A program made the translations under genes and the position numbers. The notes beneath the pieces are model-generated. The model saw only the letters and a program-made list of their open reading frames with translations, had not been told where the DNA came from and searched no databases. DNA of 64,000 bases from Flavobacterium endophyticum (GTDB lineage: Bacteria; Bacteroidota; Bacteroidia; Flavobacteriales; Flavobacteriaceae), in contig NZ_RBLC01000002.1 in the NCBI RefSeq assembly GCF_003634455.1, forward strand, positions 62,001 to 126,000. The letters are read 5' to 3'. The stretch's first letter is position 1, and each line of letters opens with the position of its first letter. Positions 53,653-60,770 of this stretch are shown here, piece after piece.

Positions 53653-53678
53653 AAAAGCCTCCCAAAAAGGAGGCTTTT
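53653..53678 (+). terminator. Terminator after the MocR gene
   Basis: AAAAGCCTCC and GGAGGCTTTT arms with a 6-base loop. It may also stop the minus-strand regulator gene that ends at 53704. Confidence 0.85.
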
Positions 53679-53703: not shown

Positions 53704-54429
53704 TCATAAAAAGCTCTTGACCCAATCCTGAAATTTGATTTTGTAAGTTTCGCCAATAGGAACAATCTTATTTTGAATAAATACCCGGTTGCGCTCTATG
53801 GTTTCAATCTGATCGAGCCGAATGATATAGGATTTGTGTACCCGCATAAAAGAAGGTGCTGGCAGTTTTGCTTCAAATTCTTTCAAGGTGTCCAGCACGA
53901 TTAGTTTTTCGTTTTTTAGATGCAAATACAGATAATCCTTTAGGCCTTCTACCAGCAGCAAGTCGTTCAGGTTTATTTTTACCAGCTTGCCATCGGTTTT
54001 TATAAATAAAAACTCATCCTGCTTTTCTTCTGTTTTAGCCAATACTTCTACGGCTGGAGCGGGCTTTTCTTGAGAAAGGGATTCTATTTTCTGTATGCAT
54101 TTATAAAAACGGTCAAATGAAATCGGCTTTAATAAATAATCCACCACATTATGCTCATAGCCTTTCAGGGCATACTCGCTATAGGCCGACGTGATTACAA
54201 ATTTTGTTTTGTTGCCCAGCATTTCCATCATCTGCAGGCCCGTAAGTTCTGGCATCTGTATGTCGATAAATAAGACATCGATAGTGGTTTGGGCGATGAG
54301 TTCTAGTATCTCAAACGGATTGGTTGTTGCTTTAACCAATTCAAAACTTGAAATTTTTTCTACATATTTTGACAACAGAGCCACTGCCATAGGTTCATCG
54401 TCTAGGATTGCACAGCGGATGATTCTCAT
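53704..54429 (-). CDS. LytTR-family response regulator
   Basis: 241 residues. The receiver domain has Asp56 in DVLFIDIQMPEL, the ITSAYSEYALKGY Thr/Ser region and VDYLLKP. The LytTR DNA-binding domain (about 135-240) contains LLVEGLKDYLYLHL, SFMRVHKSYIIRL and the C-terminal IGETYKIKF. Its start overlaps the kinase stop by 4 bases (ATGA). The regulator probably acts on the divergent receptor gene through the symmetric box set at 55531-55594. Confidence 0.94.
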   Translation of the reverse strand: MRIIRCAILDDEPMAVALLSKYVEKISSFELVKATTNPFEILELIAQTTIDVLFIDIQMPELTGLQMMEMLGNKTKFVITSAYSEYALKGYEHNVVDYLLKPISFDRFYKCIQKIESLSQEKPAPAVEVLAKTEEKQDEFLFIKTDGKLVKINLNDLLLVEGLKDYLYLHLKNEKLIVLDTLKEFEAKLPAPSFMRVHKSYIIRLDQIETIERNRVFIQNKIVPIGETYKIKFQDWVKSFL

Positions 54430-55469
54430 AGTTTGATATCTAATTTTACGTAATACATATTTTCTTTTGTGGTAATGTCTAGCGAATGCCTGTCAGGAAA
54501 ATACAATTGCAGTCGTTTCTTTATATTTTCGATGCCAATGCCCGACTGATGGTCTTTTTTATAATTGCTGATGCTGTTTTGCGTCTGCAAAATTAGATGA
54601 TTTTTATTTTGCGTCAGCTCGATAGTAAACACCTGCCCCGGATTGTTCAGTATACCGTGCTTAAAGCCATTTTCTACAAACGGAATCAGTAACAAGGGCG
54701 GAATGCGGCATTCCGGATTTTCGATATTTTTCTTAAAAACCACTTGTGCGTCACCCGAAATCCGCATCGATTCTAAGGCAATAAAGTCATCTATATAGGC
54801 TACTTCGCGTTGCAATGCAATAGTTTCGTTCTGGCTTTCATAGGTCATATACCGCATCAGTCCGCTCAATTGCTCCACAGCCGGAAGCGCTTTTTCTGAT
54901 TTTTCGAATATCAGATAATAAATATTGTTCAGGGTATTGAATATAAAATGCGGATTGATCTGCGATTTCAGGAAATTGATTTCTGTCTCGCGTTTGCTCT
55001 CCAATAAAACGATCTGCTCTTTTTGCAGGCGCAGCATGTTTACAATAAACCATAAGACAGAAGAAGCCATGATCGGGCGGCTGCCATAATAGAGATTGTC
55101 ATAGATATAATACGCAATTGTTGCATCGTTGGAATAATTATGGAAGCCAAGCCATGTGTCGTACAAAACCTCTTCTATTAAATATCGCATTCCGATAAAA
55201 ATAACAAACAGGCCCAAAAACGATAGTATGATTCGTTTTACATTTTTCACATCAAAAAACTTGGGCATAAAGACTAAGTAATTCAAATAAAAAATAAAAA
55301 TATAGATTGTTGTAAAAGAGTAGGTCAATGCATTTCCCGGAGTTTTAAAATCGAAAGACAGTATCGGGAAACTGAATGTATTTTGTTCAGGGTCAAATAC
55401 AGCCAAATCTTGCATTATATAGTACATCCAAAATAACAGATGCAGTAGAATCACATATTTTTTCTTCAT
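54426..55469 (-). CDS. LytS-type sensor histidine kinase
   Basis: 347 residues from ATG 55469. Four TM segments occupy about residues 1-140 (e.g. KYVILLHLLFWMYYIMQ). His174 in SQINPHFIFN is the phosphorylated residue, and PFVENGFKHGIL and GIGIENIKKRL are the ATP-binding elements. Unlike the TPR kinases in this window it lacks a periplasmic domain. It forms an operon with the LytTR regulator. A longer frame starting at 55538 is less likely. Confidence 0.92.
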   Translation of the reverse strand: MKKKYVILLHLLFWMYYIMQDLAVFDPEQNTFSFPILSFDFKTPGNALTYSFTTIYIFIFYLNYLVFMPKFFDVKNVKRIILSFLGLFVIFIGMRYLIEEVLYDTWLGFHNYSNDATIAYYIYDNLYYGSRPIMASSVLWFIVNMLRLQKEQIVLLESKRETEINFLKSQINPHFIFNTLNNIYYLIFEKSEKALPAVEQLSGLMRYMTYESQNETIALQREVAYIDDFIALESMRISGDAQVVFKKNIENPECRIPPLLLIPFVENGFKHGILNNPGQVFTIELTQNKNHLILQTQNSISNYKKDHQSGIGIENIKKRLQLYFPDRHSLDITTKENMYYVKLDIKL

Positions 55470-55530
55470 GGTTTGGGCTATTTTTTTAAAGTGGAAAAGT
55501 AGCGCATTACGGAATACTAAAAAACTTTTT

Positions 55531-55594
55531 TTCGACAAACACCTGTTTTTCTCCGACCAACCTATTGGTCGGATTTTTTATCGCGCTGGTCGAA
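55531..55594. promoter_or_regulatory. Symmetric four-box operator between the LytS/LytTR operon and the receptor gene
   Basis: Four CGAC boxes: TTCGAC at 55531-55536, TCCGACCAA at 55552-55560, and their reverse complements TTGGTCGGA at 55565-55573 and GTCGAA at 55589-55594. Boxes of the same orientation start 21 bases apart on each side, and the whole set is symmetric about 55562.5. The inner pair would also form a perfect 9-bp hairpin followed by six T. LytTR proteins bind direct repeats of this spacing; the next regulator is the obvious ligand. Confidence 0.65.
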
Positions 55595-55647
55595 ATAAAA
55601 AAAATAAAAACAGTAAAAGTCGAAGATTTGCTGAAAAATAATACACC

Positions 55648-58023
55648 ATGAAAACACCAGCACATTTTTTAATTTGGATCACATTTTTAATTACTACTTC
55701 TCTTTTTGCACAGACGCATGAAGTAAAAGGCATAGCGCAAGCCAACGGCGGATCGGCAGCATTTTATGATGTCTTATTGATAGCCAAAGATACTATTAAA
55801 GGCAAGACTGCCGAAAACGGTTCTTTTGCCTTAAAAGCACAAACAGGCGATTACCGCTTAGAAATTTTATATTTTGATAAAGCGGTGCACAAGCAAGAGC
55901 TGGCAGTAAAAAACGATATCGATTTAGGAGTGATTTCCTTTGAAAGCAACACCAAGCTGGACGAGGTAGTAATCGAGGCTCCTAAAAAACTGATGGAACG
56001 CAAAGCAGACCGCTTTATCTATCATGTAGCCAATGCGACTTCATCTACAGGAGGTACGGCTATAGATGCTCTTAGAACCACGCCTGGCGTTACCGTAACA
56101 CAAGAAAGCATCAGTATTTCGGGTAAAAATTCGGTTATGGTTTTAATCGACGACAAGCCTACTTATATGGGACAGGCGGAACTGATGAATTATCTCGAAA
56201 GTATCAGCGCCTCCAATTTGGCAAAAATTGAAGTGATTACTACGCCGCCAGCCAAATATCAGGCCGAAGGCAACAGCGGTATCATCAATATAGTTACCAA
56301 AAAAGTTAAGAAAGACAGCTGGAATGCCTTAGCAGGCGGAGCGTATCAACGTGGACGAAGAAACACGCAGCAGTACAATACGGCATTCAACCTGCAAAAG
56401 AATAAGCTGACATTGAGAAGCTCTCTTTCTACAGGAATACGACGCTCTTTAATCAATTGGGACAATGATATTTATTATCCAGATGCTTTTTGGAAGAATG
56501 AGAGCGGCTCTGACGGTAAAAATCGTTATGTAAACGGACAATTGTCTCTGGATTATCAGCTGACAAAACAATGGACGATTGGTACGAAAGTTTCTGCCTA
56601 TGCTTCTAAGTTTACCGATTCGCAGCCACAGCTTACGACTCTTTTTGATCAAAAAGGAGGCAGTATCCAGCAGTTTATGAAGAATAATGCGGCCTCAAAC
56701 GATAAGACCTACCAGCAGATTTACAATATTTACTCAGAATATAAATTGGATACTTTGGGCAAAAAAGTGATGGTGGATGTTGATTTTGTAAACTACCACA
56801 CGCCAACTTTCAATGAATATGCCTACGCAAACTATACGCCGGCAAACGAACTGATTGCCAACTCTGAGCATGCAGGCATCAATGATGTAGATATCAAAAT
56901 ACAAAATCTATCCGTCAAAGTAGATTTCGAATTGCCAACCAAAATAGCTGATTTTACGGCTGGTGCCCGTTTTTCCAATTCAAAATCAGACAACCTGATC
57001 AATGCCTTTAAGCAAGACGAAAATGGCGAAATGGTCTATGACACCAACCTGTCGAATTATTTCGAATACACCGAAAAGAATGAAGCGCTTTATATTTCGG
57101 GAAGCAAAAAGTTTAATGAAAAATGGAATATCCAGTTAGGCCTACGCTTAGAAGCTACGCAAACCGATGGATTTTCGAGAGAAGCCAATAATCGCCATAC
57201 CAATGATTACCTGAAATTGTTTCCTACAGTGTATGTACTGCATCAGTTTACAGAAGACAAAAGTCTTGGATTCAATTATTCGCGCCGTATCCGCCGTCCG
57301 AGTTACGAAAGCCTGAATCCTTTCCGTACGATCAACAACGAATTTAGCTACAATGAAGGAAATCCGTTTTTGAAGCCGTCGTTTACGCATAATTTTGAAG
57401 TGACCTTTACGTATAAGACATTCGATTCCCGAATCGGTTTTTCAAGCATGAAAGATGGCGTAAACCAAGCTTCTATATTAAATCCGGATACAAAACAGAA
57501 CAATTATATCTGGATGAATTATGTCAACGAAGACATGCTTAGCTTTACGCAGAGTTATACGGCAAAACCGACACCGTGGTGGACCAGCGTGAATAATCTT
57601 AATTTCAGCTACTCCGAATCAGACATTGTCGTTTCTGACAAAAGGAATAAGGGAACCTCTACGTCTTTTTTCTCAACCAATGATTTTACATTAAATAAAA
57701 ACAAGACGTTTTTCATGAGCCTTAGCTATTTCCAGAATTTTGGGGAAACGTTCCAGAATTCAAGCTTAAAACCGTATGCCAAATTTTATGCTACGGTAAA
57801 ATACCAAATGTTTGATAAAAAATTAGAGCTGGGCATTAGCGGAACCGATATTTTTAACGGACGTGAATATTCAAAACAGAAAATGTATGGGGTAACCCAG
57901 GAATTTAAAAATGTTTGGGACACGCAACGCATACGTTTTTCATTGACGTACCGTTTTGGCAACAGCAATCTTAAGACGAAAGAACGCCAGTCGGGCAATT
58001 CTGAGGAATTGAACAGATTGTAA
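55648..58023 (+). CDS. Outer membrane beta-barrel receptor (TonB-dependent-like)
   Basis: 791 residues. A signal peptide (ends SLFAQ) precedes a carboxypeptidase-like domain (about 23-105), then a plug-like domain (about 115-225; ALRTTPGVTVTQESISISG and NSGIINIVTKK) and a beta-barrel of OMP_b-brl_3 type (about 240-780), ending with the aromatic RIRFSLTYRF strand. No SusD partner is adjacent. It is divergent from the LytS/LytTR operon across the four-box region, so it is the best target of that system. Substrate unknown. Confidence 0.9.
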   Translation: MKTPAHFLIWITFLITTSLFAQTHEVKGIAQANGGSAAFYDVLLIAKDTIKGKTAENGSFALKAQTGDYRLEILYFDKAVHKQELAVKNDIDLGVISFESNTKLDEVVIEAPKKLMERKADRFIYHVANATSSTGGTAIDALRTTPGVTVTQESISISGKNSVMVLIDDKPTYMGQAELMNYLESISASNLAKIEVITTPPAKYQAEGNSGIINIVTKKVKKDSWNALAGGAYQRGRRNTQQYNTAFNLQKNKLTLRSSLSTGIRRSLINWDNDIYYPDAFWKNESGSDGKNRYVNGQLSLDYQLTKQWTIGTKVSAYASKFTDSQPQLTTLFDQKGGSIQQFMKNNAASNDKTYQQIYNIYSEYKLDTLGKKVMVDVDFVNYHTPTFNEYAYANYTPANELIANSEHAGINDVDIKIQNLSVKVDFELPTKIADFTAGARFSNSKSDNLINAFKQDENGEMVYDTNLSNYFEYTEKNEALYISGSKKFNEKWNIQLGLRLEATQTDGFSREANNRHTNDYLKLFPTVYVLHQFTEDKSLGFNYSRRIRRPSYESLNPFRTINNEFSYNEGNPFLKPSFTHNFEVTFTYKTFDSRIGFSSMKDGVNQASILNPDTKQNNYIWMNYVNEDMLSFTQSYTAKPTPWWTSVNNLNFSYSESDIVVSDKRNKGTSTSFFSTNDFTLNKNKTFFMSLSYFQNFGETFQNSSLKPYAKFYATVKYQMFDKKLELGISGTDIFNGREYSKQKMYGVTQEFKNVWDTQRIRFSLTYRFGNSNLKTKERQSGNSEELNRL

Positions 58024-58199: not shown

Positions 58200-60347
58200 A
58201 TGTTAAACCGCAAGCCTTTAGTACCTTTTCTACTCCTTTTCTTTAGCATCCTTCCTATTTATTCCCAAAATAAAACAATTGATTCCATAGAAACGATATT
58301 AGCCAATCGCAAGATTAGTGATACGACACGCATTAATACAATTATTGCGGGTATGGATAACACAATCATGTTGAGCAAACCTCATGTGGCCTACTTCAAT
58401 CAGTTGCTTCCTGTTTTTACTAAAGGATTGGCAATGCCCAAACTTCACCCAAAAGTAAAGCGAAAATACCAATTTGCTGCGGGTGTGTATTACTACAATA
58501 CAGCAAAAAAAGAAACAAGTGAGGGCAACAAAAATGCGCCAATCCACTTTGATGAAGCTATAAAGTATTGGAAAGAGTCGAAAGACTACAAGCCTATGGC
58601 ATTAGCAATAGTTGGTAAAGGTGCGTACTACCGCCATATTGCCGACTGGCCAAATACGTTCAAATACTTTTTTGAAGCATTAAAATTCTACGAAAGCATT
58701 AATAATGAAAACGGAATATCAACCGTAAATATGGAAATAGGAACCGCTTGTATAGCCCAGCAGGACTGGAATAAAGCTATTGTTCATCTAAAAAAAGCAT
58801 TGCCCTATTTTGATGTCCCAGAGTCAGAATTAAGAAAATCAGACCGCCATAGTTTAGCGGTAATCCATAATAACATAGGCACATCTTATACCCGTCTTAA
58901 AAACTTTACCGAAGCCCATAACCATTTTCTAAAAGCGTACTACTATATCAAAAAGAATAAAGATCCGCAGGCAGAATCGATAATTTTAGTACAATTGGCT
59001 CAATCCTCCAGTGAATTGGGAAAACTAGCGGAGTCGGAAGATTATTTAAAAAGAGCCTTAGAGTTATGTAATGATGATATTTCAAAACAAGGAGTATACG
59101 GGAGTGCTGCACGCATTAATTACAAAAATAAAAACTATGATAAAGCGGCAGAGTATGGTGAGTTAAGCTACAGCCTGGCGAAAAAAAATAAAAACATCAA
59201 TTCGCAGTCGGGTATCACTTCCCTGCTATACAAAATTTATAAAGAGAGCGGACAGTATGAAAAAGCATTAAAAATGCATGAGGCGAACATCGTAATAAAA
59301 GATTCTACAAATTTAGAAGCCTCAAAAAACGAATTGGCGCAGCAGGAACTCAAATACCAATTTGAGAAAAAAGAACTGCAGCAAAAAATACTCCAGCAAA
59401 AGAAATTAGCGGCAGTTACACTAGAACAGCAAAAGAAAGTGACAGCCGTCAAGCTCGAAGCCCAAAAGAAAGCGGCTCTAGAAACCTCAAAAAACAAATT
59501 AGCCCAACAACAGTTAGTCTATGATTTTGAAAAAAAACAGCTGAACCAGAAACTCGCTCAAGGAAAAAAAGTAGCCGCGATCAAGCTAGATTCTGAAAAG
59601 AAAACGGCCGTTAAAAATAACTGGCTGATTGCCGTTTCTTCTGTATTCCTGCTTTTTTTGCTCGGTGCTTATTTCTACTACCGCAACAATAAGCAGAAAC
59701 AAGCCATTACGGTTTTAGAAAAAAACCAAATCAAGCAAAAGCTGCTCATCACCCAGATGAACCCCCATTTTATATTCAATTCGGTACAGAACATCGAAAG
59801 CCTGATCGATAACAAGCAGAACGACGAAGCGGTGGTTTATCTGGGCAAATTTTCAAAACTGACAAGACAAATACTTGAAAACTCCAATGAAAATTACATA
59901 TCGCTAGAAGAAGAACTAGAAATGATTGAAAACTACCTTTCTATCCAGCAGCTGCTCTATGAGAACAAATTCAAATTTACGATTCTGGTAGAAAAAGAAA
60001 TCGATACCGAATCGATATTCTTGCCGCCGATGTTAGCCCAGCCGTTTATTGAAAACGCCATCAAGCACGGACTGAGCAACACTTTGGAAAATGGAAAAAT
60101 TGCTATTCATTTCTATCTGAAAGAAAACAAGCTGTTTTTTGAAGTAACAGATAACGGCAAAGGTTTTGGTACCAGCACCCAATCAAGCAGTCACAAATCG
60201 CTAGCCATGACCATTACCAAAGAACGCTTGGTTTCGTATACCAAAAACAAAGATTTTATAGTGCAGACCGATAATCTGATCGCCTCAAACGGAATGATTG
60301 AAGGTGCCAAAGTTGTTTTTGAGATTCCTTATATTTACGAAAGTTAG
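58200..60347 (+). CDS. TPR-containing LytS-type sensor histidine kinase, orphan
   Basis: 715 residues, a paralogue of the kinase at 20664. The signal peptide ends PIYSQ; TPR repeats occupy about 110-370; then a long coiled coil (about 375-468), one TM near 474-494, His523 in QMNPHFIFNS, PFIENAIKHGLS and DNGKGF, and the conserved PYIYES end. The coiled coil is duplicated: LAQQELKYQFEKKELQQK recurs as LAQQQLVYDFEKKQLNQK about 62 residues later, absent from the other kinase. No response regulator lies beside it. Downstream are a giant hairpin and a 21-bp repeat array. Confidence 0.92.
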   Translation: MLNRKPLVPFLLLFFSILPIYSQNKTIDSIETILANRKISDTTRINTIIAGMDNTIMLSKPHVAYFNQLLPVFTKGLAMPKLHPKVKRKYQFAAGVYYYNTAKKETSEGNKNAPIHFDEAIKYWKESKDYKPMALAIVGKGAYYRHIADWPNTFKYFFEALKFYESINNENGISTVNMEIGTACIAQQDWNKAIVHLKKALPYFDVPESELRKSDRHSLAVIHNNIGTSYTRLKNFTEAHNHFLKAYYYIKKNKDPQAESIILVQLAQSSSELGKLAESEDYLKRALELCNDDISKQGVYGSAARINYKNKNYDKAAEYGELSYSLAKKNKNINSQSGITSLLYKIYKESGQYEKALKMHEANIVIKDSTNLEASKNELAQQELKYQFEKKELQQKILQQKKLAAVTLEQQKKVTAVKLEAQKKAALETSKNKLAQQQLVYDFEKKQLNQKLAQGKKVAAIKLDSEKKTAVKNNWLIAVSSVFLLFLLGAYFYYRNNKQKQAITVLEKNQIKQKLLITQMNPHFIFNSVQNIESLIDNKQNDEAVVYLGKFSKLTRQILENSNENYISLEEELEMIENYLSIQQLLYENKFKFTILVEKEIDTESIFLPPMLAQPFIENAIKHGLSNTLENGKIAIHFYLKENKLFFEVTDNGKGFGTSTQSSSHKSLAMTITKERLVSYTKNKDFIVQTDNLIASNGMIEGAKVVFEIPYIYES

Positions 60348-60367
60348 AACCCGTAAAGTTTATAAAG

Positions 60368-60443
60368 AGAACTTTATGAGAGTGAATAAGAAGCCTATCT
60401 CCTTTATTGGGTATAGGCTTCTTATTCACTCTCATAAAGTTCT
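60368..60443 (+). terminator. 31-bp perfect inverted repeat after the kinase
   Basis: Arms 60368-60398 and 60413-60443 are perfectly complementary over 31 bases with a 14-base loop. It starts 20 bases after the kinase stop. The right arm contains the first unit of the following 21-bp array. No T run follows, so it could be a terminator, an mRNA stabiliser or a structure of mobile origin. Confidence 0.7.
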
Positions 60444-60670
60444 TATAGGCACTTCTTAAGTTCTTATAGGCTCTGCTCAAGTTCTTATTGGCTCTACTCA
60501 ACTTCTTATAGGCTCCGTTCAACTTCTTATTGGCTCTGCTCAACTTCTTATTGGCACTGCTCAAGTTCTTATTGGCTCTGCTCAACTTCTTATAGGCTCT
60601 GCTCAACTTCTTATAGGCTCCGCTCAAGTTCTTATATTCACTGCTCAACTTCTTATTGGCATCCCTCAAC
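60419..60670. repeat. Twelve-unit 21-bp tandem array
   Basis: Twelve contiguous units, all exactly 21 bases, with consensus TTCTTATTGGCTCTGCTCAAC. Variation is confined mainly to a few positions (ATAGG/ATTGG, CTCAAC/CTCAAG). On the minus strand the array stays open as heptads A-N/Y-K-K-L-S-R. It lies in the 423-base gap 60348-60770 with the 31-bp hairpin; the remainder to 60770 shows only a possible promoter region. Confidence 0.9.
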
Positions 60671-60770
60671 TTGAAACTGAACGATTTGATGCTTTATAAT
60701 TGTAAAAATTATCCTCTTTTTAGTCGCTACATCTTGCCGTTTTTTGATTTCGTTTCCGTAAATTCGCAGG

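Follow-up and report, generated by a model that had tools for sequence, protein, structure and literature searches.

The 64,000-nucleotide stretch of Flavobacterium endophyticum DNA analysed here (the window) carries four short boxes between a two-component operon and a divergent receptor gene, which raises the question of what binds these boxes and which of the two genes they serve. The reading that we favour, with a probability of about 80%, is that they form a two-sided LytTR operator with an agr-like layout in a member of the Bacteroidota.

Gene context and geometry of the four boxes

According to Pfam, the minus strand encodes a LytS-like sensor histidine kinase (PF06580, 347 aa, 54426-55469) and a response regulator of 241 aa (53704-54429) with a receiver domain (PF00072, E 1e-16) and a LytTR domain (PF04397, E 2e-18). 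The plus strand encodes a receptor-like outer-membrane beta-barrel of 791 aa (55648-58023; PF14905, plus matches to TonB-receptor and plug families). A profile built from nine such LytTR regulators and compared with PDB chains matched ComE (E 8e-11) and AgrA (E 5e-6). A longer reading of the kinase would begin at TTG 55538; its start is probably the ATG at 55469, since the kinases of two relatives (L003 and L004) align from that codon, and this start makes all four boxes intergenic, within the 178 bp that separate it from the receptor start (ATG 55648). A Pfam search confined to five neighbouring proteins recognised neither AgrB nor AgrD. Further downstream of the receptor gene, a TPR protein contains a second PF06580 domain (58200-60347). 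Directly past its gene we observed a 21-bp tandem repeat of 11 copies (60440-60672), which corresponds on the minus strand to 7-aa repeats (ORF 60256-60669) and is preceded by a perfect inverted repeat of about 29 bp noticed by eye (60370-60398 / 60413-60441). At the other end of the locus, a probable terminator stem (AAAAGCCTCC / GGAGGCTTTT, 53653-53678), also seen by eye, separates a GntR-aminotransferase gene from the LytTR regulator gene, which converges on it.

Two of the boxes are oriented toward the kinase and two toward the receptor. Box 1 (55533-55540, CGACAAAC, reading GTTTGTCG on the minus strand) and box 2 (55554-55561, CGACCAAC, reading GTTGGTCG on the minus strand) are the promoter-proximal and distal halves of the kinase-side site. 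On the plus strand, box 3 (55564-55571, ATTGGTCG), 2 bp from box 2, and box 4 (55585-55592, GCTGGTCG) are the distal and promoter-proximal halves of the receptor-side site. The cores are CGAC at 55533 and 55554 and GTCG at 55568 and 55589, spaced by 21, 14 and 21 bp. The initial annotation had placed the boxes at 55531, 55552, 55565 and 55589; the last position was right and the other three were off by 2, 2 and 3 bp. Its description of the geometry was accurate: on either side, the interval between boxes of like orientation is exactly 21 bp, and the two nested inverted pairs are both centred on 55562.5.

This arrangement is rare. The exact pattern CGACN17CGACN10GTCGN17GTCG occurs once in the genome of this strain (3,745,791 bases), and CGACN17CGAC is found three times in the window against 0.53 expected, a count reached in 2 of 100 shuffles; two of these three occurrences are the boxes themselves. 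A box model trained without the four-box loci scored 16.4 for the receptor side (right) and 24.9 for the kinase side (left), and none of 1000 dinucleotide shuffles of the 178-bp spacer between the genes scored as high as either half.

Read in the direction of the gene that it serves, the box has the form G[T/C]TN[A/G][T/C][C/A]G, and the consensus of the loci described below is GTTNRYMG; the window's receptor-side boxes deviate from the usual first two letters. The LytTR family consensus of Nikolskaya and Galperin (2002) reportedly has a core around GTTNR, which GTTNRYMG may resemble. In the excerpted text of two reports, LytTR operators consist of a pair of direct repeats, each of about 9 bp, separated by 10-13 bp, with a period of about 21 (PMC2766830, PMC11347149); the window, with 8-bp boxes and a 13-bp spacer on both sides, falls within this spacing. 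The four boxes look like two LytTR-type direct repeats (approximately GTTNRYMG, 21-bp period) facing away from each other.

Box pairs and promoter-like elements in related loci

Related loci were collected by searching for the kinase. Counting the window's own genome each time, matches were obtained in 26 of the 101 genus-group genomes (E <= 1e-40), in 35 of 398 by a profile search (E <= 1e-90), in 47 of 395 across the phylum (E <= 1e-80) and in 36 of 397 across the family (E <= 1e-80). Loci were taken from the best matches listed (the best 80 for the named species collection and about the best 30 for each of the 398-, 395- and 397-genome searches), so that the comparison set represents the better-scoring relatives. 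After duplicate removal, 137 loci yielded 122 distinct upstream regions; the widest tally comprised 160 loci. A search of a plasmid collection returned only three short weak matches, within kinase or LytTR coding sequence.

Of 46 closely related loci, 36 carry a strict box pair with a period of 21 (on the side of the divergent gene in 28 and on the kinase side in 8), and none has one at the other 27 periods between 8 and 35. The other 76 loci contributed one right and 10 left pairs, again only at period 21. The abundance at 21 is partly built in, since the pattern had been derived by visual inspection of some of these loci; fairer tests of the period are the emptiness at other periods and a looser score. 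With this looser score, the 122 loci yielded sites at 21 bp 47 times on the right and 32 times on the left; no other period exceeded the 17 sites seen at period 17, followed by 10 at period 30 and 9 at period 13, these three counts all being right-hand ones. Control coding stretches gave 2 in 976. Altogether, 41 of the 46 related kinase/LytTR loci have a site on one or both sides. This figure includes L041, which carries a strict pair that the looser score missed, the start of its right-hand gene being misset. The remaining five (L033, L061, L046, L064 and L049) had no site at the looser cut-off.

We then considered the distance from the boxes to the nearest promoter-like element. The flavobacterial sigma-A -7 box is given as TAnnTTTG at -12 to -5 in the excerpted text of PMC9723704, and the loosened form [TC]ANNTTTG was chosen after an initial distance tally; both the box and the -7 pattern were picked after some of the same loci had been viewed. 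Among 47 sites on the side of the divergent gene, 21 have this element 30 nt beyond the proximal box and 9 have it at 31 nt, with no match at any other offset from 5 to 61; the exact sequence TANNTTTG is absent from these offsets. The remaining 17, including the receptor side of the window, lack [TC]ANNTTTG. On the kinase side, TANNTTT was found at 30 or 31 nt in 15 of 30 sites, with 11 matches scattered elsewhere. The window has a candidate -7 element for the kinase operon 31 nt from box 1 (TACTTTTC, 55494-55501, minus strand) and one for the receptor gene 30 nt from box 4 (AAGATTTG, 55623-55630, plus strand), both imperfect and both unchanged in a close relative (L122). In seven of the eight four-box loci of two sister clades the distance is 30 or 31 nt on both sides (ties resolved toward 30), the exception being L004, whose right site was under the cut-off of this tally.

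As the candidate elements of the window stand at these same distances, each dimer may activate one promoter. Transcription would start at about 55635 (plus strand) and 55489 (minus strand), and the dimer centres would lie about 57-58 bp upstream of these starts, roughly the place of AgrA. In the mechanism that we propose, the regulator (53704-54429) is presumably phosphorylated by the adjacent kinase; one dimer would then occupy boxes 3 and 4 and activate, rather than repress, the receptor gene, and a second dimer on boxes 2 and 1 would activate its own kinase-regulator operon in a positive loop. Because the inner boxes abut with a 2-bp gap, the four boxes would lie on approximately one face of the helix, and the two dimers may touch. 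The earlier proposal that two divergent dimers could control both flanking genes at once is strengthened by the recurrence of box pairs at 30 or 31 nt, the promoters concerned being themselves predicted from sequence. The combination of box, 21-bp period and 30-31 nt to the -7 element would amount to a rule by which targets can be predicted.

Lineage distribution and spacing of the two sites

The full set of four boxes can be made out in L122 and L135, whose kinases are 91% and 68% identical to that of the window. Box positions changed less often than the others in both (0 of 32 vs 15 of 130 in L122, 6 of 32 vs 52 of 130 in L135). A sister clade (L003, L127, L128, L030/L124 and L004), of which Myroides odoratus is a named member, also has four boxes, with 1-2 bp between the inner ones; its right-hand boxes are mostly weaker than the left (p 0.015 in L004, 0.001 in L003). 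In a tree restricted to site-bearing loci (78 of 84, the 76 others being excluded) and midpoint-rooted for drawing only, the window's clade and the Myroides-like clade form one branch (support 99/90) beside 33 loci with a site for the divergent gene only. In the 160-locus tally, no kinase-side pair was found in 36 loci, which were classed as having a site on the divergent-gene side only; loci of this kind that retain the kinase, the LytTR regulator and the divergent receptor number 21. A further 76 of the 160 loci yielded no site, among them 13, most of which have a more distantly related kinase, that encode a kinase, a regulator and a receptor-like divergent gene. The case that the initial annotation had named as counting against its reading, orthologous loci with the genes but not the boxes, is realised in part: the layout persists in the sister clade, L122 and L135, and the genes are kept without the kinase-side pair in 21 loci and without any pair in 13. 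The four-box form is therefore lineage-specific. Third boxes, 21 bp further in, were seen by eye in what appear to be five-box forms, on the left in two Parapedobacter loci (L057 and L082) and on the right in a Spirosoma locus (L047).

The two groups of loci also differ upstream of the kinase. The consensus TANNTTTG is present in 21 of 21 receptor-side-only loci with a divergent receptor and in 0 of 9 two-sided loci with a receptor, which would fit a kinase promoter that needs an activator in one group only, with few independent lineages behind the contrast. In other species the divergent gene often encodes a DUF5694 protein (5 cases among 8 proteins examined: L005, L047, L053, L161 and L173), a family whose name was absent from the open-licence literature searched; the LytTR site common to both suggests that its role is related to that of the receptor.

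Where both sites are present, the gap between the inner boxes appears, across Bacteroidota lineages, to be a whole number of helical turns with about 1-3 bp added, as though selection kept the dimers on one face of the DNA at any distance. We clustered loci with both sites at a score of at least 11 by kinase identity (60%), and the median gaps of the nine clusters were 1, 2, 2, 3, 22, 22, 32.5, 43 and 43 bp. For a period of 10.5 these give R 0.92 (Rayleigh p ~5e-4), or R 0.91 (p 0.0012) with L058, whose left site lies at an extrapolated kinase start, left out; addition of two weak clusters (scores 9.7 and 10.1, gaps 7 and 46) lowers R to 0.67 (p 0.007). The best-fitting periods for these 11 clusters are 5.1 and about 20.8, and a period of 21 gives R 0.76 with nine clusters and 0.70 with 11; with 13 gaps, R is 0.73 for period 21 vs 0.69 for period 10.5. 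The idea of a phase arose after part of the gap data had been seen. Loci added later have gaps of 22 (five of one clade), 22, 22, 3, 3 and 43 bp, and a weaker pair (L174) one of 21. Three further loci with both sites (L034, L055 and L149; gaps 21, 21 and 43) fell outside the clustering owing to a short kinase reading. Erosion of longer 21-bp arrays explains the spacing nearly as well as helical phase. Against such arrays stands Parapedobacter, where the gap is 11-12 bp by eye if the third left box is counted, and, weakly, L031, with 11 bp by eye and a right pair of p 0.054. That the two divergent dimers would constitute one phased four-subunit complex coupling both promoters is accordingly a tentative proposal, which we consider doubtful at present; if true, cooperation between divergent LytTR dimers becomes directly testable.

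The abutment of the inner boxes lends itself to a different view, in which the 2-bp gap bars joint filling, so that one promoter is served at a time or one side brakes the other, and in which the kinase-side pair, fitting the box model better (24.9 vs 16.4), could win. We consider such a competitive switch unlikely, as exclusion by overlap needs no phasing, yet the site spacing looks phased in lineages with gaps of 21-43 bp, and both sites stand at the recurrent distance from a promoter-like element. It is much less probable still that another dimeric regulator, one that binds palindromes, uses this palindrome as its operator, with the LytTR resemblance secondary: in the window CCGACCAA-N4-TTGGTCGG forms a perfect inverted repeat, but it is mismatched in L003, L004 and L030, where the 21-bp pairs persist, and 36 loci have the divergent-gene-side pair without the kinase-side one.

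The same inner palindrome (TCCGACCAA-CCTA-TTGGTCGGA, 55552-55573, plus strand) had been described as a hairpin followed by a T run, which is real as sequence: hairpin scanning and folding return a 9-bp stem with a loop of 4, then TTTTTT, with a folding z of -4.2 on the plus strand and -5.8 on the other. The further suggestion of an attenuator or terminator in a leader RNA can draw on these values and on the one terminator-like hairpin found by the scan, on the plus strand, against a shuffle mean of 0.4. We nevertheless rejected it as highly improbable, for the hairpin lies upstream of both predicted starts, an Rfam search with it found no matching family, and comparison by eye shows an imperfectly paired stem in L003, L004 and L030 and a run of A in place of the T run in the sister clade. 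The hairpin is read as a by-product of two abutting inverted boxes. Chance is a negligible explanation of the four-box arrangement, despite AT-rich intergenic DNA and short boxes, given that none of 1000 shuffles matched either half and that the boxes are conserved in relatives.

Known LytTR systems and the search for further targets

The two-sided LytTR reading has its closest counterpart in the P2-P3 region of Staphylococcus aureus agr, where, as here, the LytTR regulator (AgrA) is encoded in one of two divergent transcripts and, in the excerpted text of PMC4227749, binds direct repeats upstream of each of the two promoters. The centre is given there as about -60, against about -57 here (predicted starts), and may refer to the proximal repeat instead of the pair. 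The locus described here departs from agr in its LytS-like PF06580 kinase, in having an outer-membrane receptor as the divergent target, in its Bacteroidota-type promoters and in the 2-bp spacing of its inner boxes (in agr, the space between the AgrA repeats is bound by SarA). The two-sided form would be reminiscent of agr wiring, in a phylum with quite different promoters.

In the streptococcal sil system (P3/P4 and P5/P6), the LytTR regulator SilA is associated with paired 10-bp direct repeats and an 11-bp spacer, i.e. a 21-bp period, and P5 and P6 are divergent with putative SilA sites, as here (excerpts of PMC2766830). That system serves peptide quorum sensing from Gram-positive promoters, and the likeness is one of layout, box sequences aside. 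CoxC and RcoM likewise have a LytTR domain acting on direct repeats about two helical turns apart, but with three direct repeats, and CoxC represses by overlapping -35; the excerpted portions of PMC11347149 mention no second, opposite site. In the open-licence literature searched, no title or abstract dealt with such a LytTR operator in Bacteroidota, which is weak evidence of absence.

Searching the window's own genome with RYTNRTCGN13RYTNRTCG gave five places, compared with 1 and 1 for a reversed-pattern control. Two are this region, two lie in ORFs and one (L141, contig C3:168075-168103) is intergenic: two copies of GTTCGTCG make a perfect pair with a 21-bp period, and neither a promoter nor a gene is clearly recognisable where it would be expected. 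As these other places are in ORFs or without a suitable promoter and gene, no second regulon target is established. Pairs of a PF06580 kinase and a LytTR regulator recur in the Bacteroidota genomes searched. In a coevolution experiment with Flavobacterium johnsoniae, all five lines are reported with a mutation in a LytTR regulator or in the histidine kinase of the next locus tag, as listed in Table 2 of the excerpted PMC10197871.
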